Of a stretch of 64,000 bases of DNA, positions 15,997-54,169 are shown piece after piece. The position numbers and the translations under genes were made by a program. This DNA is from Amblyornis subalaris (taxonomy: Eukaryota > Chordata > Aves > Passeriformes > Ptilonorhynchidae), in contig JACAXG010000061.1 in the NCBI GenBank assembly GCA_018881555.1, positions 2,542,001 to 2,606,000 on the forward strand. The letters run 5' to 3'. The notes beneath the pieces are model-generated. The model had not been told where the DNA came from and searched no databases. It was given only the letters and a program-made list of their open reading frames with translations. Position 1 is the stretch's first letter. Every line of letters starts with the position of its first letter.

Positions 15997-16179
15997 TCCC
16001 TTCCCTTCCCTTCCCTTCCCTTCCCTTCCCTTCCCTTCCCTTCCCTTCCCTTCCCTTCCCTTCCCTTCCCTTCCCTTCCCTTCCCTTCCCTNTTCCCTTC
16101 CCTTCCCTTCCCTTCCCTTCCCTTCCCTTCCCTTCCCTTCCCTTCCCTTCCCTTCCCTTCCCTTCCCTTCCCTTCCCTT
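15997..16179. repeat. (CCCTT)n / (AAGGG)n pentanucleotide array, about 36 units
   Basis: Tandem TTCCC units run for about 183 bp, perfect except for a TN interruption at 16091–16092. On the minus strand the unit is AAGGG, a strict purine strand able to form triplex or G-quadruplex structures. Length in the assembly may be collapsed, and the N marks an uncertain base in the middle of the array. The apparent serine-proline-leucine-phenylalanine open frames across it are artefacts of the repeat. Confidence 0.95.
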
Positions 16180-25100: not shown

Positions 25101-27198
25101 AATGTATCTGCCAGTTTTAATGAACATTTCAACTTCTGCATCTAAAGCAGCAGAAGGGAAAGTATTAAGGCTTATTTGTTCCAGTTTAATAACAAGCTTA
25201 TCTCAAACTGAGAAAGTGTGATGATGGTATTTTTTGTGCTGTCTGGACATACCGACCTACTTAAAGAAAACTGTTGTCTACCTTAGCTTGATCAAAGTGT
25301 TGTATTTACAAATACAACTGTATGAAATACAGAAAAACATTCCCCTGCTGAACCTAACAGTCCCTACCTGTCAATATACAGAGGCAGTGCTACCTGAAAG
25401 ATTTTCTGCAAAAGTAAAATGTAAGCAAAGCAAGAAATTATGTCTACAGGTACTACAGATGGGGTGGTCTGAGTGCATTTTGTGTTCTTGCTTATGCTGC
25501 TGTTTAAAAGGCAAGGGCAGTGACTCTGAGCATGAGGAAAATTTATTCACACCATTTGCCCAGACAAAAAAAATTGCTTTTGTAGGAAGCCATAGAAAAT
25601 GTTTATCCCAGATCGTTTTTCTTCTCTGGTTGTTCACATTAGTTCTAGAGAACGGCAGGACCTAAGCAAAGTAGGCTGATAGTAAAGGGTGGCAGTGGCA
25701 TTAGTCTGCCTAAACTGTGGTTACTTTGTGAAGCCATGCAGCAGAAGGCGCTTTCCCCAAAAGCATTCTTCAGCTGCCTGGGCCACTCCACTTCCACACC
25801 ATGCAGCACCACAGTCAAATGCTTTGCCAAGTACTGCAATACTGAAGTCTGAATGCCATTACAGGTTTGAAGTATAGTTATATAAGGACAAACGACTTAA
25901 ACAACAGCCTTAACAAACTTTACCTCACACACATTGTCTTCATATACACACTCTTGGAAGTTATTCTCCACATGTAAACCAGTATGGCTCTTAACTGTTG
26001 TCATCGGGTGCAAATTTTCCATTATATACAGTCTCAGACTAGCCTGTGTAGCAGCTGTTGTGAACTTCTTGTGGCCACTTCTTGGAAGCATTTGGGAACA
26101 CCGCATATTTAAGAGCAAGTGTTATCTTGCATTCTCTAGGCTACGCCTAGAATTGAGGCTATACATAAACCTAGATAAACGTCAGGTTTGTCTAAAGTCA
26201 GTATTTAAATACTCCCTGCAATTCACTACGAACTTCAGCTTCTTGTGTACTAGCACAGAGTAACATCAAGTTTTTTACTTAGGTTGACTTGGTTTTACTT
26301 TGTTAAAAAACTGTAGTATTTGATCAGAGTTCTAAGTATGCTTATAATTCACCTAGAACTAGTACGTATCTGTTTCAGTAGCTGTGTTTACAGACACCAG
26401 TATAAGAATTACCCGGGCTAACTAATTTCACACACAGAATCTGGAGCTTAAAGAAACAGTGTTCCTAAATCCATTCAGAACAAAGCAGAGATGAGAGAGG
26501 AGATGAAAGGAGACGAGAGAGATTCCTGAGGAGAATGCAAGCCACAAAATTTAAAAAACCCCTGCTAATACAGAGATCTCTACCCAAGTGATCTCAGTTA
26601 AAAAACCCCAACCAACCAACAAACCAACAACTAAAAAAACCCCACCCACAAATGAGGAAACAGCTGCAAATCACCCTTTCCATTTCAGGACTGTCAGTTT
26701 TAGAGATGGCCAATTAAGCCCAGCAATTATTCATACATTTCAGACTTACTCTAGGTCCAATAGAGTAAGAATTACCACATTCACCTGTTCTTCAAATGGA
26801 CTGCCTCACATCACTGAACATGAGGAACAAAATGCATCACGTAATACAATGCTGTTGCCACAGATAACTTTATATGGACTGGTGATAAGTAGGATGTTTA
26901 GGTTGATAGATCTAACTGCTGGAAGAAATAATCTCCAAGCCAAGGATTGCAACACTCTTTTAGCTTCCAAGCAACATATTTGCTGAACTGCTCCCTAGCT
27001 GGCTAATACAACTTCTCAAGCCTTGACGATTCCAGGCCACAAATACCATAACCTGCAATAAGTAGCAACCTCTCTTTCTCACTTTCTGTTATCCCAATTC
27101 CTTGAGCCTAACTGCTTCCCTACACTCCATCTACTTCCCATGCTTTTGCATCTGGTTGCCCCATTATTGCTGCACACTACTCTCCATAATTTACAGAG
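16180..27198. other. Intergenic DNA, no gene recognised apart from a short CR1 remnant
   Basis: Eleven kilobases with no recognisable protein-coding exon or RNA gene. It includes compressed pyrimidine repeats (18830–18875), a G/T-rich patch (23209–23330), a duplicated ATGGTATCAAACAC motif near 22509 and 22543, and A-rich runs. A few medium open frames occur at 24.9–26.3 kb on both strands but match no family I know. Confidence 0.45.
16808..16870 (-). mobile_element. CR1 LINE 3' tail remnant
   Basis: A short match to the reverse complement of the CR1 3' end: a segment of the type AATCATAGAAT, then GTTGGAAGGGACC, CA-rich spacing and GATCATCAAATCCAGC. Only about 60 bp remain, so this is a heavily truncated copy. 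Confidence 0.75.
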
Positions 27199-28553
27199 AA
27201 TCACAGAACGAACCACGTTGGAAAAGACCTCTAAGATCAACTCCAGCGTTTGACCAATCACCACCTTGGCATCAAGCATCATGTTGGAACACAACATCTC
27301 CAGAGATGGTGACTCCACCACCTCCCTGGGCAGTCCATTCCAANGTTTAACCCTTTCTGTCAAGAGATCCCTCCTAATGTCTGACCTGAAGCTCCCCTGG
27401 TGCAGCTTAAGGCCGTGTCCTCTTGTCCTATCACTCATTGCCTGTAAGAAGACACCAACCCCCACCTCTCTACAGCCTCCTTTGAGGCAGTTGTACAGTG
27501 ATAAGGTCACCCCTGAAACTCCTTTTCTCCAGGCTTGACACCCTCAGCTTCCTCAGTCGCTCCCCATAGGACTTGCGCTGCAGACCCTTTACCAGCTCCG
27601 TTGCCCTTCTCTGGACATGCTCCAGCACCTCAATGTCTTTCTAGCAATGAAGGCCCCCAAACTGGACACAGGATTCAAAGTGTGGCTTCACCAGTGCTGA
27701 GTACAGGGGGACAGCCACCGCCCTGGTCCTGCTGGCCACACTGTCCTTGATCCAAGCCAGGATGCCATTGGCCTTCTTGGCCACGTGGGCTCACTCATGG
27801 CTCATGTTCAGCTGCTGTCAACCAGCACCCCCAGGTCCTTTTCTGCTGAGCAGCTTTCCACCCACTCTGAGCCCAGTGCCTGGGGTTGTTGGGACCCAAG
27901 TACAGGACTTGGCACTTCACCTTATTGAACTTCAGCCCAATGGCCTCAGCCCATTGATCCAGCCTGTACAGACGCCTCTGCAGAGCCCTCCTACCCTCCT
28001 GCAGATCAACACCCCCAACCTGGTGTCATCTGCAGACTGACTGAAGGTGCTCTCAATCCCCTCATCCAGATCATTGATAAGGACATTGAACAGGGCTGGG
28101 CCCAACACTGGTCCCTGGAGAACACCACAGTGACCAGCTTGCCAGCTGGATGTGGCACCATTCACCACCACCCCCCAGGCAGATATCCAGGCTGTTTTTT
28201 CACTCAATGAAGCATGCACCTGTCCCACCCATGGGCTGCCAGTTTTTCCAGAATGCCATGCGAGACAGTCTCAAAGGCTTTGCTGAAGTCCAGGTAGGTA
28301 ACATCCAGAGCCTTTCCTTCTTCCACTAAGTGGGTCATTGGGTCATAGGAGGAGATCAGGTTGGTCAGGCAGGACCCACCTTTCCTAAACCCATGCTGGC
28401 AGGGCCTGATCCCTTGGTTGTCCTATGCGTGTGACAGCACTCAAGATATTCGCTCCATAGCTGTCCTGAGCACCAAGGTCAGCCCAGTAGGCCTATAGTT
28501 CCTCGGATCTTCCTTCCAGCGCTTTTTGTGAATGGGTGTCACACTGGCTAACC
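27199..28553 (-). mobile_element. 5'-truncated CR1 LINE with decayed reverse-transcriptase segment
   Basis: About 1.35 kb of a CR1 non-LTR retrotransposon in minus orientation. The low-coordinate edge carries the CR1 3' end signature (AATCACAGAA, then TTGGAAAAGACC). Reading on the minus strand, the frame at 27932–28228 keeps the block [12 protein letters not shown] followed by INDLDEGIE and an ADDTR motif, the core reverse-transcriptase catalytic region of CR1 ORF2. The 5' part of the element (endonuclease and ORF1) is absent and the frame is broken up- and downstream. This is a dead insertion, as usual for bird CR1 copies. An N at 27345 stands for one base relative to the expected CR1 sequence. 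Confidence 0.92.
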
Positions 28554-39300: not shown

Positions 39301-42300
39301 CTGCCCAAAACTATTAATCCATACAAGATGAAGCCCATGACTCAGTCTGTCCCGAAGAGATAATATCACAATGCAGGCTTAAAGACTTTTTTTAGAGGAT
39401 GTGTCCTTACTTTTAATAGCAATTTTATCTACAAATTTCAGTAGATGTGGTAAAATTCACAGTATCATTACAGGGGTAAAAAAAGTACTGCTTATTGTGG
39501 TGAATACAGGCTGCTATTCATATTCTTTGATTCTTTCCTTACGGATCAATTACACTAACAACTCAGTCTAGCTATTAACAACTATCTGTACAACAAGGAA
39601 AGCAACTGACCAAGGCACAAATCAAGACAAACCCCATCACTTTTCAAGCGCATAATGACATCCTTAAGAGAGGAAAATGCAAAGGGAATCTCCAGAATTT
39701 TGATACAGAAAACTACTTTAAAAAGTTAAATTCCAAAATGTTTCAAAAATACCATAGACATAGAAGCCTCGAAGATTTATTTTCATTTTGAAGTAACAGA
39801 CTAAAATCAAAGTCCAGTGCTAATTGGTGATTCAATACAGACAGCTTACGCTCAAAATCTGCCCACGCATCTGAACACTGAANTAAAATGCTTCATTTGT
39901 TCGAAACTGCCACATTGCTTGAACAAAGTATTTTAAATTAATCTCACTGTAAAAACCTGCTAGTGCATACACATTCAAAAACTTTTTTTTTTTTAACAGA
40001 GAATTCATGAAGACAATGCATAAAGAGCACACCTGCAAAAAGTAGTAAAACATGAATTTACCTCTTTGGAATCATCAATTCTCTCAAAATAAACAAAAGC
40101 AAATCCTCTTGATCGCCCGGTCCGCTGATCATAAACCACATTGACCCCAGTCAAAGGTCCGTAACGGGAGAAGACTTCACGCAAATCTCTCTCAGTAGTG
40201 TACAAGCTGAGACCAAACACCCCAAGACAGGTATTAGGATCTGGATTAGCCTGGTAAGACAAATGTTCAACTTCAGTTAATTTTATTGAAAACAATTCAT
40301 ATATTCTTGTATCAAAAATTATCAATTATAAAAAAAATTAATCTGAAGAAAACTAAACACAGGTTAATACAAAGTTTTAACAGTTATCATTCTAATTGTA
40401 AGACATTTTCAAAAAGCAACTACTTTCAGTGGTTTTTATTTTAGAAAAAAGACCAACACAAACTTCTTGTTGAAAAACTCAGTTGGTAAAAATTAAGCAT
40501 TCTGATTCACAGAAAAGCTACAGCATAACAGGAACCCATTCTATTATTATTTCATACTGAAATTCCCAACAAGCTGCAGATACCACACAGGAACCTGTCC
40601 TGAGGACAGGTCTGCCAGCCTGAACTCCCACCTTCAGCCTTTTTGCATGGTCATCATGGCACTAAAGAGTGCACACTGCCTCCAGCAGCCCACACTAAAT
40701 GTGAGCACTTGAGCTCCTAAGTACAGACAACCGAACTATAATTTAGCTTCTACTGAAACTTCCTCCCCCTCAACACTCCCTATCCAAGTATACTGAAAGT
40801 CAATATTTACATTTGGAAGTTAATCTTTCCACTTGTAAACTGGATGAAAGTCACCTGCTTCTTTCATCTAGAGAGCAGCAAGTGCTGAAGGCCAGTTCTG
40901 TGAAACTGTAATCCAAAAGCATGCATACTTCTCTAGAGCAAAACTTCTGACTCTCTAACATGATGTGGGATACTTAATAAATTTCACTTCACCTAGATAA
41001 AGTCAAATATGTAATAGTACAAGGTACAGTTTCTCTTTTAGGTTCAACATTTCTCTAATGCCAAATCCTCTGTAAGAATTATTTTGATCAAAATCAACTC
41101 TTTTTTTCAGTTAAGCTTCTGGCACCTGTAATACAAGATGCAGCAATTTAAAACACCAGCAACAAGCACAGGGATTTAATGTTTCTGCCAAAATAACAAC
41201 TGGAAGTTGACACAGCTGAAATTTGTACTTCAGTTTCAGATAAGTCATTTATGCACAGTAATTTATGCCTCAGAGCCTGCCTTTCAGCCTGATTCAAAGA
41301 GTGAAAAGGTTTAGATCTTGTCATGCTCTTTTCAGTGCATTTGTTCAAGAACCTATAGTGAAAACAAGATGCCCACACTACTCATATATTTGAAGCTCCT
41401 TTCTTTCCATTTGTCAAAGTTCAAACTTCTGTTTTAAGACATGAATCTTCTGTAATTCCTTACTATAGCTGAAGAACACAACAAAACCTTACAGTTTGTA
41501 ATTCGAAAGTTTTAATTATATATGTCTAGATACATATTTTTTACTGCATATTTCAATCTATCTGATAATTCAATGGCACTGGCAGCTATACTAATTTTAT
41601 TACTGAACTCCTCTAAGTGTAACGAAATCTGTCTTTTAAATCATTGTTTGAGTAAGTTCTTCTACACATCCACATCTGCTGCCCTTTTTTAACATTCCTC
41701 TTACACTTAAATCCTGCTACCTTTCCTGAAGCAAGAGAAGTACTAAAATCAGCCTGCAGACCCTAAGTGCCAAATGACAACTGCATCACCACTGGAAGGA
41801 CTAAAAGGCAGCTTTTCTATTAGGTTTTTGTACTGCCTCCGCCAACCCAGTATGCAAGCTCTCTACAAGAACGGAAGTGGCAAAATTGCTACCAGTTTTC
41901 CCAGTGTCTTTAGGACCTTGTTATTAAGGGGATTTCAAATCTGATTTCAGTTTCATTTTGACACTACTAGAACTACTCCTTAGAATTAACATGAAACTCA
42001 CTGTGGAAACACTTGCAGTGTTTCACGAAGTCACTTCCAAGGCAGAAAAATGTCTTCACATAGCAAAGCATCCTAATATTTCCTGGAGTAGTCAGATGGA
42101 TTCTTCCACCTTTCACCAGAAAAACTGCTAATCCACTTGAAGTTCAGCTATTTCTGCCAATTTTTCAAGACACTAGATTAATATTTACTTCATAGTGATT
42201 AGATGCTGGCAACAATCCATAAAAAGCTACTATGAACATTGCATCACAACAGCTTGAGCCACTGCATTTAGCACTGCTGGAGTCTTGCCCTTTCCACACT

Positions 42301-45300
42301 CCTGTCTTCTCTTTCACATTGGTAATACCTGCTCCTGGTGACCTGCTTCACCAAGGTAGGTCTGCAAAAAAACCCTATTTTCTTTTCGACTGAATTAATA
42401 AAAATGTTTGGAGGCTAAACCAGATTAAAATGAAAAGGATCAGAACTATATCACTGCCCTCAACAACAAAAAGGCAGAGCTGTGTGTAGACACTCATTTA
42501 GATCAACCAGAAGCTAAGGCACTGGAACAGATCAGACAAGAAACTGCTGGAGTGGAGGGCTATCAAGAAGATTAGGCAACAGGAGCCTCTCTTATGAAGA
42601 AAGGCTCAGAGAGCTGGGCCTGTTTAGGCTGCAGAAGAGATGACTGAGAGGGGATCTTTTCAATGCATATAAATATCTCAAGGTCAGGCATCACAAAGAT
42701 GGGCCAGACTCTCTTCAGTGTTGCTCAGCAACAGGACAAGGGGCAATAGGCACAAACTGAAACATGGCAAGCTCCATCTAAATATAAAGAAAAACTTCGA
42801 GGGTGACTGAACACTGGAACACACTGACTGGAGAGGCTGCAGAGTCTCCTACTCTAGAGATGGTCAAAACCAGCCTGCTCATGATCCTGTGCAGCCTGCT
42901 CTAGGAGAACCCACCTTGGCAGCGGGGTTGGACCAGCTGATTTCCACAGATCCCCTCCAACCCCAACCACTGTGTCATTACAAAGAAGGACACTGGGAGA
43001 AATCTCTCAGAATGACATAAGATTAGTATCTTAGATTTTGGTTGGTGTAGCTATTCTTCCTCTTGCTCATACAGAGACGCTCCTCATTTACATTCTGAGA
43101 AGATGACTGCTCTTTTTCATAACTGTAAATTTTTCTAGTCTATTATAAAGGTTTACATATTACCTAAAACACAGGGCTTTACTTCAAGGTAAACCAAATT
43201 AAATAACCAGAGGTATAAAATCACAAGCAACCTACAACATATGCTCTATAAGCAAATAAACACTTGGGAATTTCCTTATATGGATCCCCATGTCAATCTT
43301 ATCGATACTGTCAGGTTACAAGCACATACAGAGGTCTCATTTTTCAAGGTCACATATACTTGGAACTGTAACAAAAAAACCCCAACAAAACAGCAGAGCT
43401 CAACTTTTAGAACAGACAGCAGCAGTGTCACCATCTCTACACATACTGAGTTGCAACAGAAAGGTTTCAATTAATTTCTACAACTTCCCTGCCAGTTGCA
43501 GTCCCAAGAAATAAGTGCCCAGCTGTAAGGACAGAGATTGCTCTACACACACTCNCCACTCCCACCCAATTCCCACATCCTCCAGGGACAACACAGCAGG
43601 TCAGACTCAGCCTGCAGGTAACCTGGACTCCATTGACACAATTAGCACTTGCTTTGTTGATACTCAGCCTTTATGAACATGACATACTCTGCTGCCAGTG
43701 TGCCTTCTCCTGTTGGACATTGGAGAATGACTGCGGCTCCTTCGACGGCGGTACTCTGGTGTGTATGACCTGCTTCGGGAACGTCTCCTATGGGAATGAG
43801 AGTGTGATCTGGAACGCGTGTAACGTCTGTGCGAATGTCTTCTGGACCTGGATCTTCGACAAACAGAAAGCCTTTAGTCAGCTCAGAAGCACACAATGTA
43901 CTGAACTGTAAACCAGACACTTTCTAGAGAAAAGTTTTTTTAGAGTACCTCTACAATTAAAACAATTAAGCTTCTTTTGCCCTGCACATCTAAAGATTAC
44001 ATGGATCTCTAATAACCTGCTCGGTAGCACCATTGTTAACTCCTTGAGAGTACTTCTGGCATACACTGAGGATTACATTCACAATAGTTTTCAGCAATTT
44101 CAAAGTTGAAACTTGTATCAGCTTGGCTGCTTATCTAATTAAAAACTGCATAATGACACAGAAACCAGATATGCCACACTGTAAAGTACTGTTTCGACTG
44201 AAAAACTGAAAAATCTGGCAGTACTACAGTGCTGCAATATCTACAAATTAAGTTTACCTATGCATGAAAATGACTCCAGACAAAAAAAACCACAGAACTC
44301 AAACACCTGCTTAACTCCTCAAGCATTTCTTTGCACACATCTTGCCAATGATAAGTTGTTTAAAACAGGTAGGTAATCATCTGGCTAAGCACTGCAAGAA
44401 GAGAAACTGTAACATTAGCTGAACTTTGGCAATTCAGAGCACAGCAACTCTCTTTCAGTTGCTCTGATATAAATAGAGAAGACGGATTACTGATCTCTCC
44501 CAAGAATTGGGAAGGAGGGACAATGTCAGACTATGCAATTCCTCCTCTAGCACTACAAATGCTCTTTTCTGGTTTCTCTCTTGCTTGATTAAAGAAAGAT
44601 TCAGTAGCTCTCCCCTCTTTCATCAGTATGATGGTAAAAGGGAATAGAGATGATGGGCAGTATGAAAGAGGTAATATTTATGGCATATTTCCAGGAAAAA
44701 AAGCAAGACATTCCTCTTGTGTTCCATGCAAGCTCTGCTAGAACTGAGAGCTAAAAAGCTTTACCTCCGCACACGCAAACTTGGGGTAGAAAAGGACAGA
44801 GGACATGTGCAGCACTGAAAAATGAATTTCCACCTTAAAACTCTCACAAATCAAGAACCTATCCACACCCAATTTAAGATGGAGTTTTCGATTATGTTCT
44901 TAAAGCCTTCAACAAGATAATGTCAGAAACATTCCCAAGCAGCGTTTCCCAATATTTCCAACAGTTAGAGAGCTTATTCTTTTTATCTAACCCTGACTAC
45001 CCTTGCTGCTGGTCTCACTTGACTTTTTTTTCCTAAAGGAGAGGTCCACACAAGAATTCCCCCACAAGAGATTTTGGGAAAAGGAAGCAGGAGCTCCACA
45101 GAATTAAGATGCAATCCTTTCTCTCTCTTCCAGAAGAGACAAACCTACATATTTTAGCTATGATTTCTATGTTACTACTTCTATTTCTAGTACCTTCTCT
45201 CTTCATACTCATTAAATCATTCCCCAACTTTGCCACCTCTACGAGTATAAACATGCAAATACCAAAACAACAGCAGTAACAGAGCTGATACAAGTAACTT

Positions 45301-48300
45301 TCNGAACATACCTTGATTTTGATCTTGACCTAGAGTGCGATTCAGAATGTTTGGAAGCCCTCGATGGACTGCGAGATCCTGACCTGCTCTCTGATTTTAC
45401 ACGAGCAGGACTCCCAGCTGGAGATTTTGACTGGGAGCGAGACTCCTAACAAAAAAGACAGTATTAAAAATGGTATTGGTTGTGTAAATGCCTAACTCCT
45501 AACATTTAAAGTACAGTAATTCTATTATATTGATTGCTCCTGAAAAACAAATGGTTAGGCAATACCCTCCAAAACAAATTTCATTTTGCTAACCCACTGT
45601 TAATATTGAATGCTTGCCTCAAATAGGTCCCTGCTTGAACCAGATCACCAATTCTCTATTAACTAAGTAATCATGCAAATTCATCTACAACTTGATCATA
45701 CAGACACTGGAACATAAACCATACATTTACTTAACCTAGGACCCATTCATTCTTCCAGATTCTTTTAATTCTACTTCACTCTTGCTTTCTACTTTTCTTC
45801 ATTCTTCATTGAGTTTTTCATTTTTCATACTTCGTGTATTCTTCCCCAATTCAAACAATTCATTATAGCCTTAAAAAAATATTCAAGTGCTTCTATCTGA
45901 CCAATCTTCTGTTCAATTTTTTCCCCCATTCAATTTTAATTTTCTGATCTTTAATACTTTTCATTAGCCTTCTTTTATCTTGATTTATCTTCCACATTCT
46001 TGGAAAAAACTCTTCAATTTCTTCACGAACATTAACCTTAATGGAAAAAGAACATTTAGTATATTTAAGCACGTGGGGATTATAAAACTCTGCTGGAGTT
46101 CAGACGTTATCTACCAAATTGAAAAGCCAGCAGGTAAAGTGCAAGAAACTATTTTATAAAACAACTTTTTAAAAAAATATCTTTAAAACTGTATAAGTGT
46201 CTATGTTCTAACAATGATTTTACTGAGTTCTTGGGGTTTTACTGTATTTGCAAAGCTACCCTCCTCCCCTCTGAGATTTTTTTGATACGATACATAGATA
46301 CACTAAAAACTAATTAGCACAAATATATTGAAGTATTGATATCAGTGATGCCCCCCAACTAAAATAGTAACTATGTGTTTCTCAGTATGGAATATCCCAA
46401 ATTTTACTCCTACAGATTACTAAGACACNCTCAATTCAACAGAATGGCCAAAGACTTCCAGTCAAAACCTATCTATGCACATACTTACTCGCATGATACA
46501 TGCACATAGGTATAAGCAACATAAATTATTATTCTTCCTACTTTTTCTTCCTCATTGTTATCCTGTTTTCCTTATATAATCCATATAAACTAAGATGTAC
46601 AATAGTATAGTTAAAGCAATCCAATAAAAGTAAAAACAGGAGGGTTTTTTCTTCTTGCATGGTAAGGCACACAAGAGAAAAACTAGGAAAACAAGCAAAC
46701 AAAGAGCAGGTTAGGATTTCCTCACATTTGATAGTGTACAGCATTTCTAGGGAGCTTAGCTATAAAACTCCCTACAGAACAGTAAGCTATATACATCTGT
46801 AACTTCACAAAAATGTGGAAAATACTTAATGAAAAAATGCATAGCAAGTTCCCTTCCCAAAGGTGTTACATTTCACGTTTATTTGCATGATTTCTCCTCC
46901 TGCCTGTCCTCACAATGTTTTTCTCAATTTATTTCTTACTCTACCTATGTCCAGACTTGCATTTTCTTTTGCAGTTAAAATTCTTCACTGCTTTGGGCTG
47001 GAGCTCTTTTCAAAGGATGCCGTCCTCCTACTTCAAGACAGTAAATTCACCAGAAATGGAACCCGAGAGACTCCTTACTGACAACTATTACAGCCACACT
47101 ACCATTCCCCTTTACCTCAATAAAAAGGACAAGTGACACTTGGAGAATGTTACCTATTAGGATGATAGGCCTGCCAAACCTCGACAATGAAGGCCAAATT
47201 CAGCGCTTGGCTGTGACAGGCAGACCATATAATCGGGTCTGCGTAACAGGTTACCCTTATGAAGATGGCTCTCTGCTGAGCTAACTACAGGTCTTCACTG
47301 AAATAAATTATGTACATGCCTCTAAATATTACTAAATTTTATTGGTGTTTTGACATTTGAAATCCACCGTTCGCAATAAAGGAAAATTTCTCTTAGAACC
47401 ANTAACATGATTTTTTTATCACCTTGCCTCTGTTTTTGTACTCTTCAATGTTTGATAGCCTCCTAAATTCTTCCGTTTATATCTCATCCCCCCTTGGAAC
47501 AACTGCCAGTTTCTCTGGGAATTATTTGTACTTCTCTCCCTAGTAAAAATGATCACCAACATAGAAAAACATTCAAAGTGACATGAGATTTAGAAAACAC
47601 CCTTCAATAAAACCACAAAGAATTCACCCTCCTCAGATACTTTTTCTTCATAAGGATATGGCATTGTGCATACTTTTTACATTTGAAAGATCAATTCTTG
47701 AACAAGAACTCTGGAAACCTGAACAAAGGCAACCCCCCACCCCACTGCCCAGGTATTGCACAATCTAGAAGTGTTGGGAGGTGCCAAAAACACCACGGAC
47801 CAATCGCTCCCATCCAATGTAGAAGTCATCTTAGCGTCCTTAGCTATTCAACTCTAGCACCTTAAGATCCCACCCATAGAGCTTTTAATTATATCAACTA
47901 TGACAGCAAATCTGTATTAAGTTGCCAAAACCAAATATTACATGATTTCATATAGGTCAAGTCCTTTTGGAACTGTCTGTTTAAGACCCTGAGGGGCTGC
48001 ATTCACAAACACACAACTTGAAAACTGCAGTGACAGAGGTGACAGTGTAAATTCCTAGGCGTTTCAAACTTCCTTAACCAAGTAACGGTAGATGTAAACA
48101 GCAGCTGAAGGCAGATTATCTGAGAGCCGTTGCACACTGTGACTGGCAAGCAATTACATCTCATCTTCTGATGCAACATAGATCACCTAGTTATACCTCC
48201 TACAATGCTTCAAAAGGAGAGACTAAGGGAACCACAATAACCTGCAAAAGTTTAAGGACTTAAGGATGATGCTGAAAAAGTTCCTAGTAATATTTATATC

Positions 48301-51300: not shown

Positions 51301-54169
51301 GAAATAAAAGATAAAAAAAGGCCTCATTTGTCTAATCTGCTCACAAAAAGCATTCAATGGTGATAAAATACTTTGACGTTTCCAAAACCAAGTCACCGGA
51401 TAAGCACAACTTAAAATCTTTTTTTCTTCCTAATGTCCATAAACTCAGCTTTAGCACATCCACTATATTTTTAATTCTTCCGTCAATTTCTTTCCATTAA
51501 ATCACCATGCTTGAGAAGGGGGCTTTCTTCTGTTCAACCAGCCACATTCTCAACAGACAACTTGCTTAAGTTGAAACAAAATGACACAAAAACAAAGCAG
51601 ATGTTGATTAGTCTGAGCATATTTGATTAACATNGCCTCAAAAAAAAGTCAATAAAGGATTGAGTTCAAGAAGGAAAAAAGCTCTACAATTACTTTACCC
51701 ATACTTTAGAAATAAAAGCTTTTAAATAGTGCAAACTAAGCAATTTAATTGCACAATTATTTCCGTAATTATTCTCAACTTCCTGTTCAGGTTAATNAAG
51801 ATTTTAAAATCATAAATTAGAGACAAAGCACATACATGGACAGTATCTTACTGCTCATAAAATTAGCTTTTAAAAAAATTCTGATCATACTCAACTTTCA
51901 TTGAAGTGTTTTTGGGACAATATGCATCTACACAGATAAAATATAAAAGACCTTAAATGAAACTTAAAACTGCCTTACTCCCGCGGCATTTAGTTTTTAA
52001 AGCACATCACACTAATTAGTACTTAAACTGACAGGGGGTAGAAGAACTGAAAGGGTAGTCAGCATTCTTATTTGTGCCAATTTCCAGGAAAACAGCTTCT
52101 TTACAAACTTTCTTCCAGTTTCTGTAGTTCTTTCTCACAGTGAAAACTTTTGCTTTACTCTCAGCACTACGTGCCTGGATGTAGCAAACCGAAACTAGGC
52201 CATTGAGTGCATGACAGAGTCCTATCCAACTGGGAATAGTGACTAAACACAACAGCCTCAAAGTTACATGTGCTTAACTTTATGCCTGGGAGCACTTTCA
52301 ATGGAAATGAAATATAAAATATTATTCTAAAANAGAATTTCTTATTTCAAGTACTTTAGTAGCATCACAACAAAGAAGTATTACTGAAGNAGAAAAAAAA
52401 AGCTTACAAACGTTCTTCAGCAGAACCACAAACCCTCCAAACTAGAAATTAATCAAGTACCTGCCATTATGCTCAGTTATGCCAGACTGACTGAGAAATT
52501 TCAGTGTAGGGAGTAAAAACAAAAGAAGTTTCCTAAATGAAAACTCAACACAGCAGTTCTTTCCAACAGGTAAATTTTCCATCACAAACAAAAAGAACAA
52601 TGGGGAAGCCACAGAACCTGCTACATAGGGCTTTTCAGACTTCATGTACTCTCAAATCATTTTACTTCTACATTTGGCAGGAGGCAGTGTGCAGATACTG
52701 AAAGTACAGAGCTGCAACAGCTTTGTACACGAACAACAGATCCATCAAGGAACCCAAAACCAACGTTCTGACAATTAATCTAACATAATTATTTCCTAAC
52801 AATAACCCGCAGTGGAAATACAGACTAGAAAATAATCCTTAAAAATATAAATCTTGACTGTAAAATATGAGATTGACATAATATTAAAAAAAAGAGAAAA
52901 AAACCCCAACCAAGCATACTCGTTGCTCAAATTTCTGAAAATCGGTNGTTTCCCCTTCGGAGTTCTATTTATCCAAATATTGCTTACCTATAGAGCCACC
53001 TTTGTCCAAGCAACCAACACAAGAACAGGTTTTGTTTACCTCACTCGAGGAAGCAGCAGCAGTTATGGTACAGCCAGTAAAGGACTNGCAGCCTATGGAA
53101 TTTTTTTTTAGCACTACAAAAATGGCAATACTCGCGTGAAAGTAATCATTGGAATGTAACGCCGTTCTTCCAAAATCTCATTGCTTGTTTCCCCAGACAG
53201 TAACTTATATAACTGCAAAGCTGCTGTCACTGGTTCATCAGAGAGTCATCAGGAGGATGCTCAGGTGTTCCTCTAATGAATGGCTTAAAAGAACGAGCAA
53301 CAACAACAAAAACCCTCTGCAAAATTAAAAAAAAACTAAATTGTGACAGAGGAGCGCACATTTCGTTCCTGTTTCAAGCAGCTTCTAATTCCTGCTTGCC
53401 CTGATCATCACTAAGAAAAAAACAAAACAAAACAAAACCACAAAACACTGAAAATGGAAGAGACCTGTCACACGTGTACATGAAAACCCGCGGCCATCAG
53501 AGGCAAGACACAGGCCTAACGAGGTTACAAAGCCACAGCAGCTCGTTCGAAGCCTTCAGCTGCACGATCGATGAGTTTCAATGGTTTAATAACAACGGCC
53601 GGACCTCCCCGATGGTCGGAGGGGGCCCGGCCCGAGGCAGCTCCTGGAGCCGGGAGAGACCTCGCACAAAAGGATGCGGGGTCTCTCCTCTTTCGGGTGG
53701 GGGAGGCCTCGGCGACCCGGCCGGGGGAACGCGAACGGGCAGGACAGAGAGCCGGCGAGCATCAGGGCGGCTCGGCCCCGCGGGAAGAACACCGAGCATC
53801 GGGGAGGAAGCCCAGGGGCTATAGCAGCGCCGTTGTCACAGAGTCAGCCTGCGCTGGCCGGGCGGGGGCCGGCCCGCAGCGCCGGGACTCGGCGCCCGCA
53901 CCCCGCCGGGGCCATAGGAACAGGGAGCGTGTGAGGGAGAGATGCGACGAGCGGAGGGGATCAAGGGCCGTCGCCCACGGCCCAGGCGAGCCTCAGGCGC
54001 CTGAAGGAGCCATTTTAGAGCCAAGCTGTGCTGCCCGAACTCCTGCCGGGCCGGAGGACGCCGGGCACCGCCACCCACCGCCCCCGGGTCCGATCTCCCC
54101 CTCAACACGGCCCGCGCAGGGGAAGCCACTCACCCTCCCCTCGAAGTTGTTCTCCTCCACGTCGCTCAT
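30310..54169 (-). CDS. TRA2A: TRA2A, transformer-2 protein homolog alpha (complete, 8 coding exons)
   Basis: Nuclear SR-like splicing activator that binds GAA-rich exonic enhancers. Joining minus-strand coding segments 54134–54169, 45312–45445, 43688–43853, 40062–40250, 31902–32017, 31287–31394, 30506–30573 and 30310–30320 gives 828 nt: 275 codons plus stop, with every junction GT–AG and in phase. Residues 1–12 are the acidic start ([12 protein letters not shown]), 13–112 the arginine/serine RS1 domain, about 119–197 the RRM (RNP2 LGVFGL at 121–126; RNP1 RGFAFVYF at 160–167), then the conserved linker ending GIYMGRPTH, a short glycine tract, a tyrosine/arginine/aspartate-rich segment and the RS2 tail ending SPRRY. 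It matches TRA2A, not TRA2B ([20 protein letters not shown] linker). As I recall the human protein is about 282 residues; the difference sits in the shorter glycine run. His179 replaces an arginine found in human TRA2A and TRA2B. A GAA-rich candidate poison exon sits in intron 1. Confidence 0.97.
30321..30505 (-). other. TRA2A: TRA2A intron 7 (185 nt)
   Basis: Short AT-rich intron with a strong donor (GTAAGT) and a long T-rich tract before CAG. Short length makes retention plausible. Nothing else is visible. Confidence 0.85.
30506..30573 (-). CDS. TRA2A: TRA2A coding exon (RS2 domain)
   Basis: Encodes [20 protein letters not shown] and YSP. The acceptor is TTTCCTTTAAAG and the donor A|GTAAGT. 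If the downstream intron is retained, the frame runs into a TAA at 30498–30500 after only two extra codons (Ser-Lys). Confidence 0.93.
30574..31286 (-). other. TRA2A: TRA2A intron 6
   Basis: 713 nt of AT-rich intronic sequence. I see no embedded RNA gene or repeat. Confidence 0.85.
31287..31394 (-). CDS. TRA2A: TRA2A coding exon (glycine tract and tyrosine-rich segment)
   Basis: Encodes [20 protein letters not shown], then repeats of the type [16 protein letters not shown]. The glycine run is seven residues plus an AG, shorter than the run of more than a dozen in human TRA2A. Acceptor CCCTAATAG and donor CAG|GTACCT. Confidence 0.93.
31395..31901 (-). other. TRA2A: TRA2A intron 5
   Basis: 507 nt of AT-rich intronic sequence. 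Nothing recognisable. Confidence 0.85.
31902..32017 (-). CDS. TRA2A: TRA2A coding exon (C-terminal RRM and TRA2 linker)
   Basis: Encodes [20 protein letters not shown] to the hallmark TRA2 linker segment [13 protein letters not shown]. The acceptor is TCTCTCCTGCAG and the donor CA|GTAAGT, splitting the codon for His214. Residue 179 is His (codon CAT); human TRA2A and TRA2B have Arg here. Confidence 0.95.
32018..40061 (-). other. TRA2A: TRA2A intron 4 (8 kb)
   Basis: Mostly AT-rich. Near its 3' end (32140–32720) is a relatively CpG-rich patch with an AAAATGGCGG motif. Two CTCF-like sequences occur at 33363–33379 and 37416–37430. I found no recognisable repeat family, RNA gene or extra coding exon in the remainder. 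Confidence 0.8.
33363..33379 (-). promoter_or_regulatory. Candidate CTCF-binding motif in TRA2A intron 4
   Basis: The minus strand reads CTCACTAGGTGGCGATA, close to the CTCF core (CCA C/T AGGTGGC type). A related but weaker sequence (ACTACTAGGTGGAGT) lies at 37416–37430 in the same orientation. Motif resemblance only. Confidence 0.4.
40062..40250 (-). CDS. TRA2A: TRA2A coding exon (N-terminal two thirds of the RRM)
   Basis: Sixty-three complete codons, [10 protein letters not shown] to RIDDSKE, holding both RNP motifs. The acceptor CTTACCAG has a weak pyrimidine tract; the donor is GAG|GTAAAT. Phase 0 at both ends, so skipping would remove most of the RRM without shifting frame. Confidence 0.96.
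40251..43687 (-). other. TRA2A: TRA2A intron 3 (contains a CR1 copy)
   Basis: 3.4 kb AT-rich intron interrupted by a plus-oriented CR1 fragment (about 42515–42980), antisense to TRA2A. Otherwise nothing recognisable. Confidence 0.8.
42515..42980 (+). mobile_element. CR1 LINE 3' fragment in TRA2A intron 3
   Basis: About 465 bp of the CR1 3' region on the plus strand, with the typical order: AAAGGCTCAGAGAGCTGGGC; GAGGGGATCTTTTCAATGCA; CAGGACAAGGGGCAATAGGC; GGAGAGGCTGCAGAGTCTCC; then the tail GGGGTTGGACCAGCTGAT and the end ACTGTGTCATT. Truncated at its 5' end and diverged. It inserted antisense to TRA2A transcription. Confidence 0.92.
43688..43853 (-). CDS. TRA2A: TRA2A coding exon (RS1 domain, second part)
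   Basis: Encodes the second RS block, including [20 protein letters not shown] and [11 protein letters not shown]. It is 166 nt and ends on a codon boundary (AGA|GTATGT). The acceptor is GTTTGTCGAAG. The plus strand across it is also open, which is an antisense shadow. Confidence 0.95.
43854..45311 (-). other. TRA2A: TRA2A intron 2
   Basis: 1.46 kb intron between the two RS1 exons. AT-rich, with nothing else recognised. An N lies at 45303, near the donor. Confidence 0.8.
45312..45445 (-). CDS. TRA2A: TRA2A coding exon (RS1 domain, first part)
   Basis: Encodes [20 protein letters not shown] and further RS dipeptides up to SRSRSKS. The acceptor is TTTTTTGTTAG and the donor AAG|GTATGT. It is 134 nt, phase 0 in and phase 2 out. 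RS dipeptides are phosphorylated by CLK and SRPK kinases in this family. Confidence 0.95.
45446..54133 (-). other. TRA2A: TRA2A intron 1 (8.7 kb)
   Basis: Contains the candidate poison exon (45731–46036). Other visible items are a 13-G run (49709–49721), a CCAA-rich low-complexity patch (49475–49540), A-runs, and the GC-rich downstream part of the promoter island above about 53570. Single Ns are unusually dense from 50 kb to 53.1 kb. No embedded gene is recognised. Confidence 0.8.
45731..46036 (-). other. TRA2A: Candidate TRA2A poison exon (autoregulatory, GAA-rich)
   Basis: On the minus strand an acceptor (TTCTTTTTCCATTAAG) opens a strongly purine-rich block of about 300 nt with many GAA, AAGAA and AATGAAGAA motifs, the preferred TRA2 binding sequence. 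It closes at a donor, either TTAA|GTAAAT (exon 306 nt) or CCTAG|GTTAAG (exon 301 nt, ending at 45736). Spliced after coding exon 1 (phase 0), it reads 47 sense codons and then TAG at 45893–45895, so inclusion truncates TRA2A before the RRM. In mammals TRA2A and TRA2B each carry an ultraconserved stop-containing exon in this intron, activated by TRA2 proteins themselves. Position, composition and frame all fit; use in this species is inferred. Confidence 0.8.

Follow-up and report, generated by a model that had tools for sequence, protein, structure and literature searches.

Judged from its sequence, a 306-nt segment in intron 1 of TRA2A in Amblyornis subalaris is the ortholog of the poison exon known from mouse Tra2a and human TRA2A, because it agrees with them in gene position and in exon lengths and is identical to mouse at all 76 nucleotides compared. 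The exon anatomy, an array of AGAA motifs, the premature stop with its distances to downstream junctions, and the 76-nt identity to mouse are all observed in the window, by which we mean the whole 64,000-nt stretch of DNA that was analyzed. We put at roughly 95% the probability that this segment is a TRA2A poison exon working through Tra2-dependent inclusion and NMD in the same feedback as its counterparts. The exon is real and conserved, but it is already known; the observation made in a preliminary description of this stretch is confirmed, and the reading given there is supported.

TRA2A lies on the minus strand of the window, where its exons were located by translation. The coding part of exon 1 contributes 12 residues (54134..54169, minus strand) and ends in the donor AGG/GTGAGT. 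Coding exon 2, which contains the RS domain, occupies 45312..45445, with TTTGTTAG directly preceding its start at 45445, and is followed on the same strand by coding exon 3 (43688..43847) and coding exon 4, which contains the RRM (40062..40250). When exon 1 is joined to exons 2-4 and to the larger part of exon 5, a single open frame runs through the RRM. The exon 4 frame matches Pfam RRM_1 with an E value of 4.1e-15, and the best PDB matches of the RRM at this locus are chains named transformer-2-beta (E 2.4e-47). The gene is assigned to TRA2A, not TRA2B, on account of its N-terminus, which we take to mark TRA2A rather than TRA2B, and of the first coding exon of IGF2BP3 near the window start, TRA2A and IGF2BP3 being presumably adjoining genes in human. 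That IGF2BP3 exon, at about 1785-1958 on the minus strand, encodes the start of an RRM and matches a PDB chain named IGF2BP3 (E 8e-29) as well as RRM_1 above cut-off. Broken reverse-transcriptase-like pieces lie at 27932-28270 and 27079-27543, also on the minus strand, the second judged by eye; RVT_1 matched the first with an E value of 4.9e-5, below cut-off, and the pieces look CR1-like; a CR1 remnant of this kind would be compatible with a bird or another sauropsid.

The poison exon is positioned in intron 1, between the end of exon 1 at 54134 and the start of exon 2 at 45445, and in its 306-nt form it covers 45731..46036 on the minus strand. The preliminary description had placed the cassette at 46036-45731 (or -45736) between these same two exon ends, and these coordinates are right. 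The acceptor region (46037..46061, minus strand), read directly, has a stretch resembling a branch site (TACTAAA), a TTCTTTTTCC tract, and the boundary TTAAG/G. The acceptor with its pyrimidine tract and the two donors 5 nt apart reported earlier are intact, with GT following nt 301 and nt 306. Use of the first of these, TAG/GTTAAG, gives a 301-nt form (45736..46036, minus strand). A third GT, which had gone unmentioned, follows nt 79 (donor AAA/GTATTA) and gives a 79-nt form at 45958..46036, minus strand. Donors were ranked by a donor matrix, applied to the 306 and 301 donors and to the exon 1 donor; among the 595 GT sites of intron 1 the 306 donor ranks 58 and the 301 donor 173, both weak compared with the exon 1 donor, which ranks 2. 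A further acceptor-like site, TTTGTTTTTCAG/GAG, was noticed by eye at 45539-45540 on the minus strand, 94 nt upstream of exon 2. If used, it would lead to an in-frame TAA after four codons and possibly to a further unproductive form. A reading based on RNA structure was rejected, as 93 of 100 shuffled versions folded as well as the exon segment or better; in the window, all Rfam families stayed below their gathering scores.

In mouse, the Tra2a poison exon has a length of 306 nt and brings stop codons into the message; Tra2-beta binds it, and in a minigene either Tra2-alpha or Tra2-beta activates it (Grellscheid 2011, PMC3240583). According to the same paper, 48% of its nucleotides are conserved in all vertebrates compared, and chicken and zebrafinch are named for this comparison in the legend of figure S2. 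Conservation in birds, which the preliminary description had proposed to look for, is therefore already in print at the level of sequence. All seven Tra2a oligonucleotides given in the passages of PMC3240583 available to us were compared with the window, together with 12 control oligonucleotides of other genes. The three that lie within the exon are identical to the minus strand of the window over their full lengths: Tra2aGSF at 46010..46035 (26/26), Tra2aGSR at 45961..45987 (27/27), and the 'Tra2a poison' primer at 45882..45904 (23/23), which holds the premature TAG. This amounts to 76/76 nt, a comparison that spans 76 of the 306 nt of the exon at sites picked by the mouse authors. Best matches of the control oligonucleotides (12/12) extended to only 13-18 letters of 20-26, and for the 23-nt match, even allowing 3 mismatches, the expected number over 100 shuffles was 0. 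Searches for the 23-nt block in viral contigs and in prokaryote genomes each returned 0 matches. For the RT primer Tra2aB the match is 19/20, located at 45336-45355 within coding exon 2 of the window; a legend in PMC3240583 assigns the RT primers to exons 1 and 4. These oligonucleotides revealed no conservation beyond the exons, as two minigene primers in the flanking introns, about 240 nt out, and the RT primer Tra2aF were unmatched at the locus, with best matches elsewhere of 17/24, 14/20, and 14/19.

Published forms of the human TRA2A exon have the coordinates chr7:23561751-23562051 and chr7:23561973-23562051 (PMC6547761 Table 1, 2019), which correspond to 301 and 79 nt when counted inclusively. 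In the window, GT stands directly after nt 79, 301, and 306, i.e., at all three published donor positions. The two donors of the preliminary description correspond to the mouse length and to one human length, and the GT after nt 79 is at the other published human donor position. GT starts at 16 of about 320 positions, so that three chance hits would be expected about 1 time in 8,000 if the sites were independent, which neighboring sites strictly are not. The premature TAG, exon codon 48 (45893..45895, minus strand), falls inside a mouse-identical block, so the same triplet is present in mouse. The equal length of the two exons suggests that they are collinear, in which case the TAG would be in frame in mouse too. 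In the 301- and 306-nt forms this TAG is reached after 59 residues (12 from exon 1 and 47 from the poison exon), which places it 157 and 162 nt ahead of the next junction. The earlier count of 47 open codons followed by TAG is correct. The stop of the 79-nt form comes after 72 residues; it precedes the next junction by 30 nt and the exon 4/5 junction by 379 nt. In all three forms, the stop is followed at more than 50 nt by a junction, the distance used as the NMD rule in PMC6547761.

The composition of the exon had been called nearly pure purine-biased, which overstates the case. The exon is 69% purine and 25% T, and it is mainly poor in C (19/306). Its description as packed with GAA and AAGAA holds, the motif counts over 306 nt being 32 for GAA, 13 for AGAA, 8 for AAGAA, and 5 for GAAGAA; by motif, the 13 copies of AGAA form an array of candidate Tra2 sites. 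The same counts were made in 126,167 other 306-nt intervals on both strands, leaving out minus-strand intervals within 306 nt of the exon. The exon's AGAA, AAGAA, or GAAGAA count was reached by 0/126,167 of these, and its GAA count by 274/126,167. The highest GAA count in the window, 44, is found at a (GGGAA)n microsatellite (15997-16179) in which the unit is repeated 36 times. The GAA counts taken by themselves would agree with a density that arose by chance from simple-repeat or composition bias, but such an origin is barely credible for an AGAA count that no other interval attains, in a segment identical to mouse at every compared nucleotide. It is somewhat easier to imagine, though still very unlikely, that a purine-rich intronic stretch goes unused as an exon here and is kept as, for example, an enhancer or an RNA-binding sink. 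The low ranks of the 306 and 301 donors would fit this idea, but neither the acceptor nor any of the three published donor positions is disrupted. Weak donors, moreover, need not oppose exon use, because in HIPK3-T, a human Tra2-beta target, multiple Tra2 sites activate a weak 5' splice site (PMC3240583).

A separate question is whether the open run ahead of the TAG has any product. The preliminary description called the run unusually long for a poison exon, which is only mildly true, P being about 0.01 in its own frame. In 5000 shuffles, 47 open codons in the own frame had P = 0.0064 with mononucleotide and 0.0116 with dinucleotide shuffling, and P = 0.036 for any of three frames. The open frame also runs 21 codons upstream into the intron, for 68 codons in total (45893-46099, minus strand). 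With P at 0.012 in frame and 0.036 in any frame, and with the frame open into the intron, the run was rejected as proof of a peptide; we regard it as a mild feature and not as evidence of a product, and the short peptide (12 plus 47 residues) envisaged earlier gained no support beyond the open frame itself. In Pfam, the 59-residue peptide gave three weak matches, with E values of 0.028-0.083 and all under cut-offs, and the 68-residue stop-to-stop frame gave no match. It is improbable that the poison isoform, beyond its role in NMD, serves as a split message for the 59-residue peptide and a reinitiated, N-truncated TRA2A without the first RS domain. Such a message would be in keeping with an open run at P = 0.012 in frame on dinucleotide shuffling, with an exon 3 AUG that is the first AUG 3' of the poison exon and lies in a TRA2A frame open through the exons counted, and with the Split-ORFs known for SRSF7 (PMC9022966). 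Against it, the stop-free frame extends into the intron, beyond what any spliced message requires, Pfam gives nothing above cut-off for the 59-residue peptide, and the TAG is separated from the exon 3 AUG by seven AUGs, of which one shares the TRA2A frame and runs for 8 codons before a stop. According to a review, poison exons have yielded new reading frames for some splicing factors but not for TRA2B (PMC12632421). Slightly more doubtful again is the idea that selection holds the 47-codon frame, either for the 59-residue peptide or to set the level of the reinitiated, N-truncated TRA2A. If true, a switch regarded as only destructive would also have a protein product.

The favored reading, a Tra2-responsive poison exon that limits TRA2A output through NMD, can be set out in a few steps. 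Abundant Tra2 protein, either alpha or beta, would bind the AGAA array of the exon and help the spliceosome to use the weak donors, and the poison exon would then be spliced in between exons 1 and 2. Ribosomes would stop at the TAG 157-162 nt before the next junction, leading to NMD of the message and to less TRA2A protein. From work in mouse and human, we infer that the process runs in the same way here, and the same feedback is the best reading because the exon is intact here. The feedback switch proposed in the preliminary description is supported by homology, its role having been shown in mouse and human papers.

Published data connect the exon both to NMD and to Tra2 proteins. Inclusion of the poison exon is higher upon depletion of NMD factors; in the UPF1 column the human 301- and 79-nt forms gain 0.65 each, and in the SMG6 column they gain 0.49 and 0.51 (PMC6547761 Table 1). 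Depletion of Tra2-beta lowers inclusion of the TRA2A poison exon and raises Tra2-alpha, and Tra2-beta iCLIP clusters are located in this exon (PMC4175592). Loss of the Tra2b poison exon increases inclusion of the Tra2a poison exon and decreases Tra2a expression by 47% (PMC11791180). In Tra2b-deficient mouse brain, a non-functional Tra2a isoform is reduced 4.0-fold (PMC3929626), and auto- and cross-regulation through poison exons is accepted for both genes (PMC12077678). In Tra2b-knockout mouse brain, loss of Tra2a poison-exon inclusion was found at 16.5 dpc but at no later stage and came with no significant change in functional Tra2a mRNA; that Tra2-alpha autoregulates in vivo was called likely rather than shown (PMC3240583). 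The same paper lists EST evidence for the exon in human, mouse, zebrafish, and frog. RNA evidence for the TRA2A poison exon in a bird was not encountered in the available portions of the literature searched, and the available part of PMC4379411 contains no mention of Tra2.

The closest known system is the Tra2a/TRA2A poison exon itself (exon 2; PMC3240583, PMC4175592, PMC6547761). The window's exon shares with it the intron, the same-end acceptor, the richness in AGAA, the internal stop, and donors at the published lengths (306 nt in mouse; 301 and 79 nt in human), and over the 76 of 306 nt compared no difference was found inside the exon. Poison exon 2 of TRA2B (Sfrs10), a paralogous gene, resembles it in feedback logic and in being placed between exon 1 and the coding exon that follows. 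It is, however, a separate exon, the mouse Sfrs10 RT-PCR products of 714 and 438 differing by 276 nt (PMC3240583), and a much higher AGAA density is ascribed to the human TRA2A exon (PMC4175592). SRSF7 Split-ORF transcripts are alike in combining a poison exon that has an upstream ORF with a possible downstream start, a resemblance that here concerns the ORF layout, whereas the review of those transcripts, in the part available, does not name TRA2 (PMC9022966). The finding adds no new principle. It shows that a poison exon can be spotted by a reader of raw sequence. For this species, the stop codon and the GT at all three published donor positions indicate that it has an intact autoregulatory exon in common with mammals.
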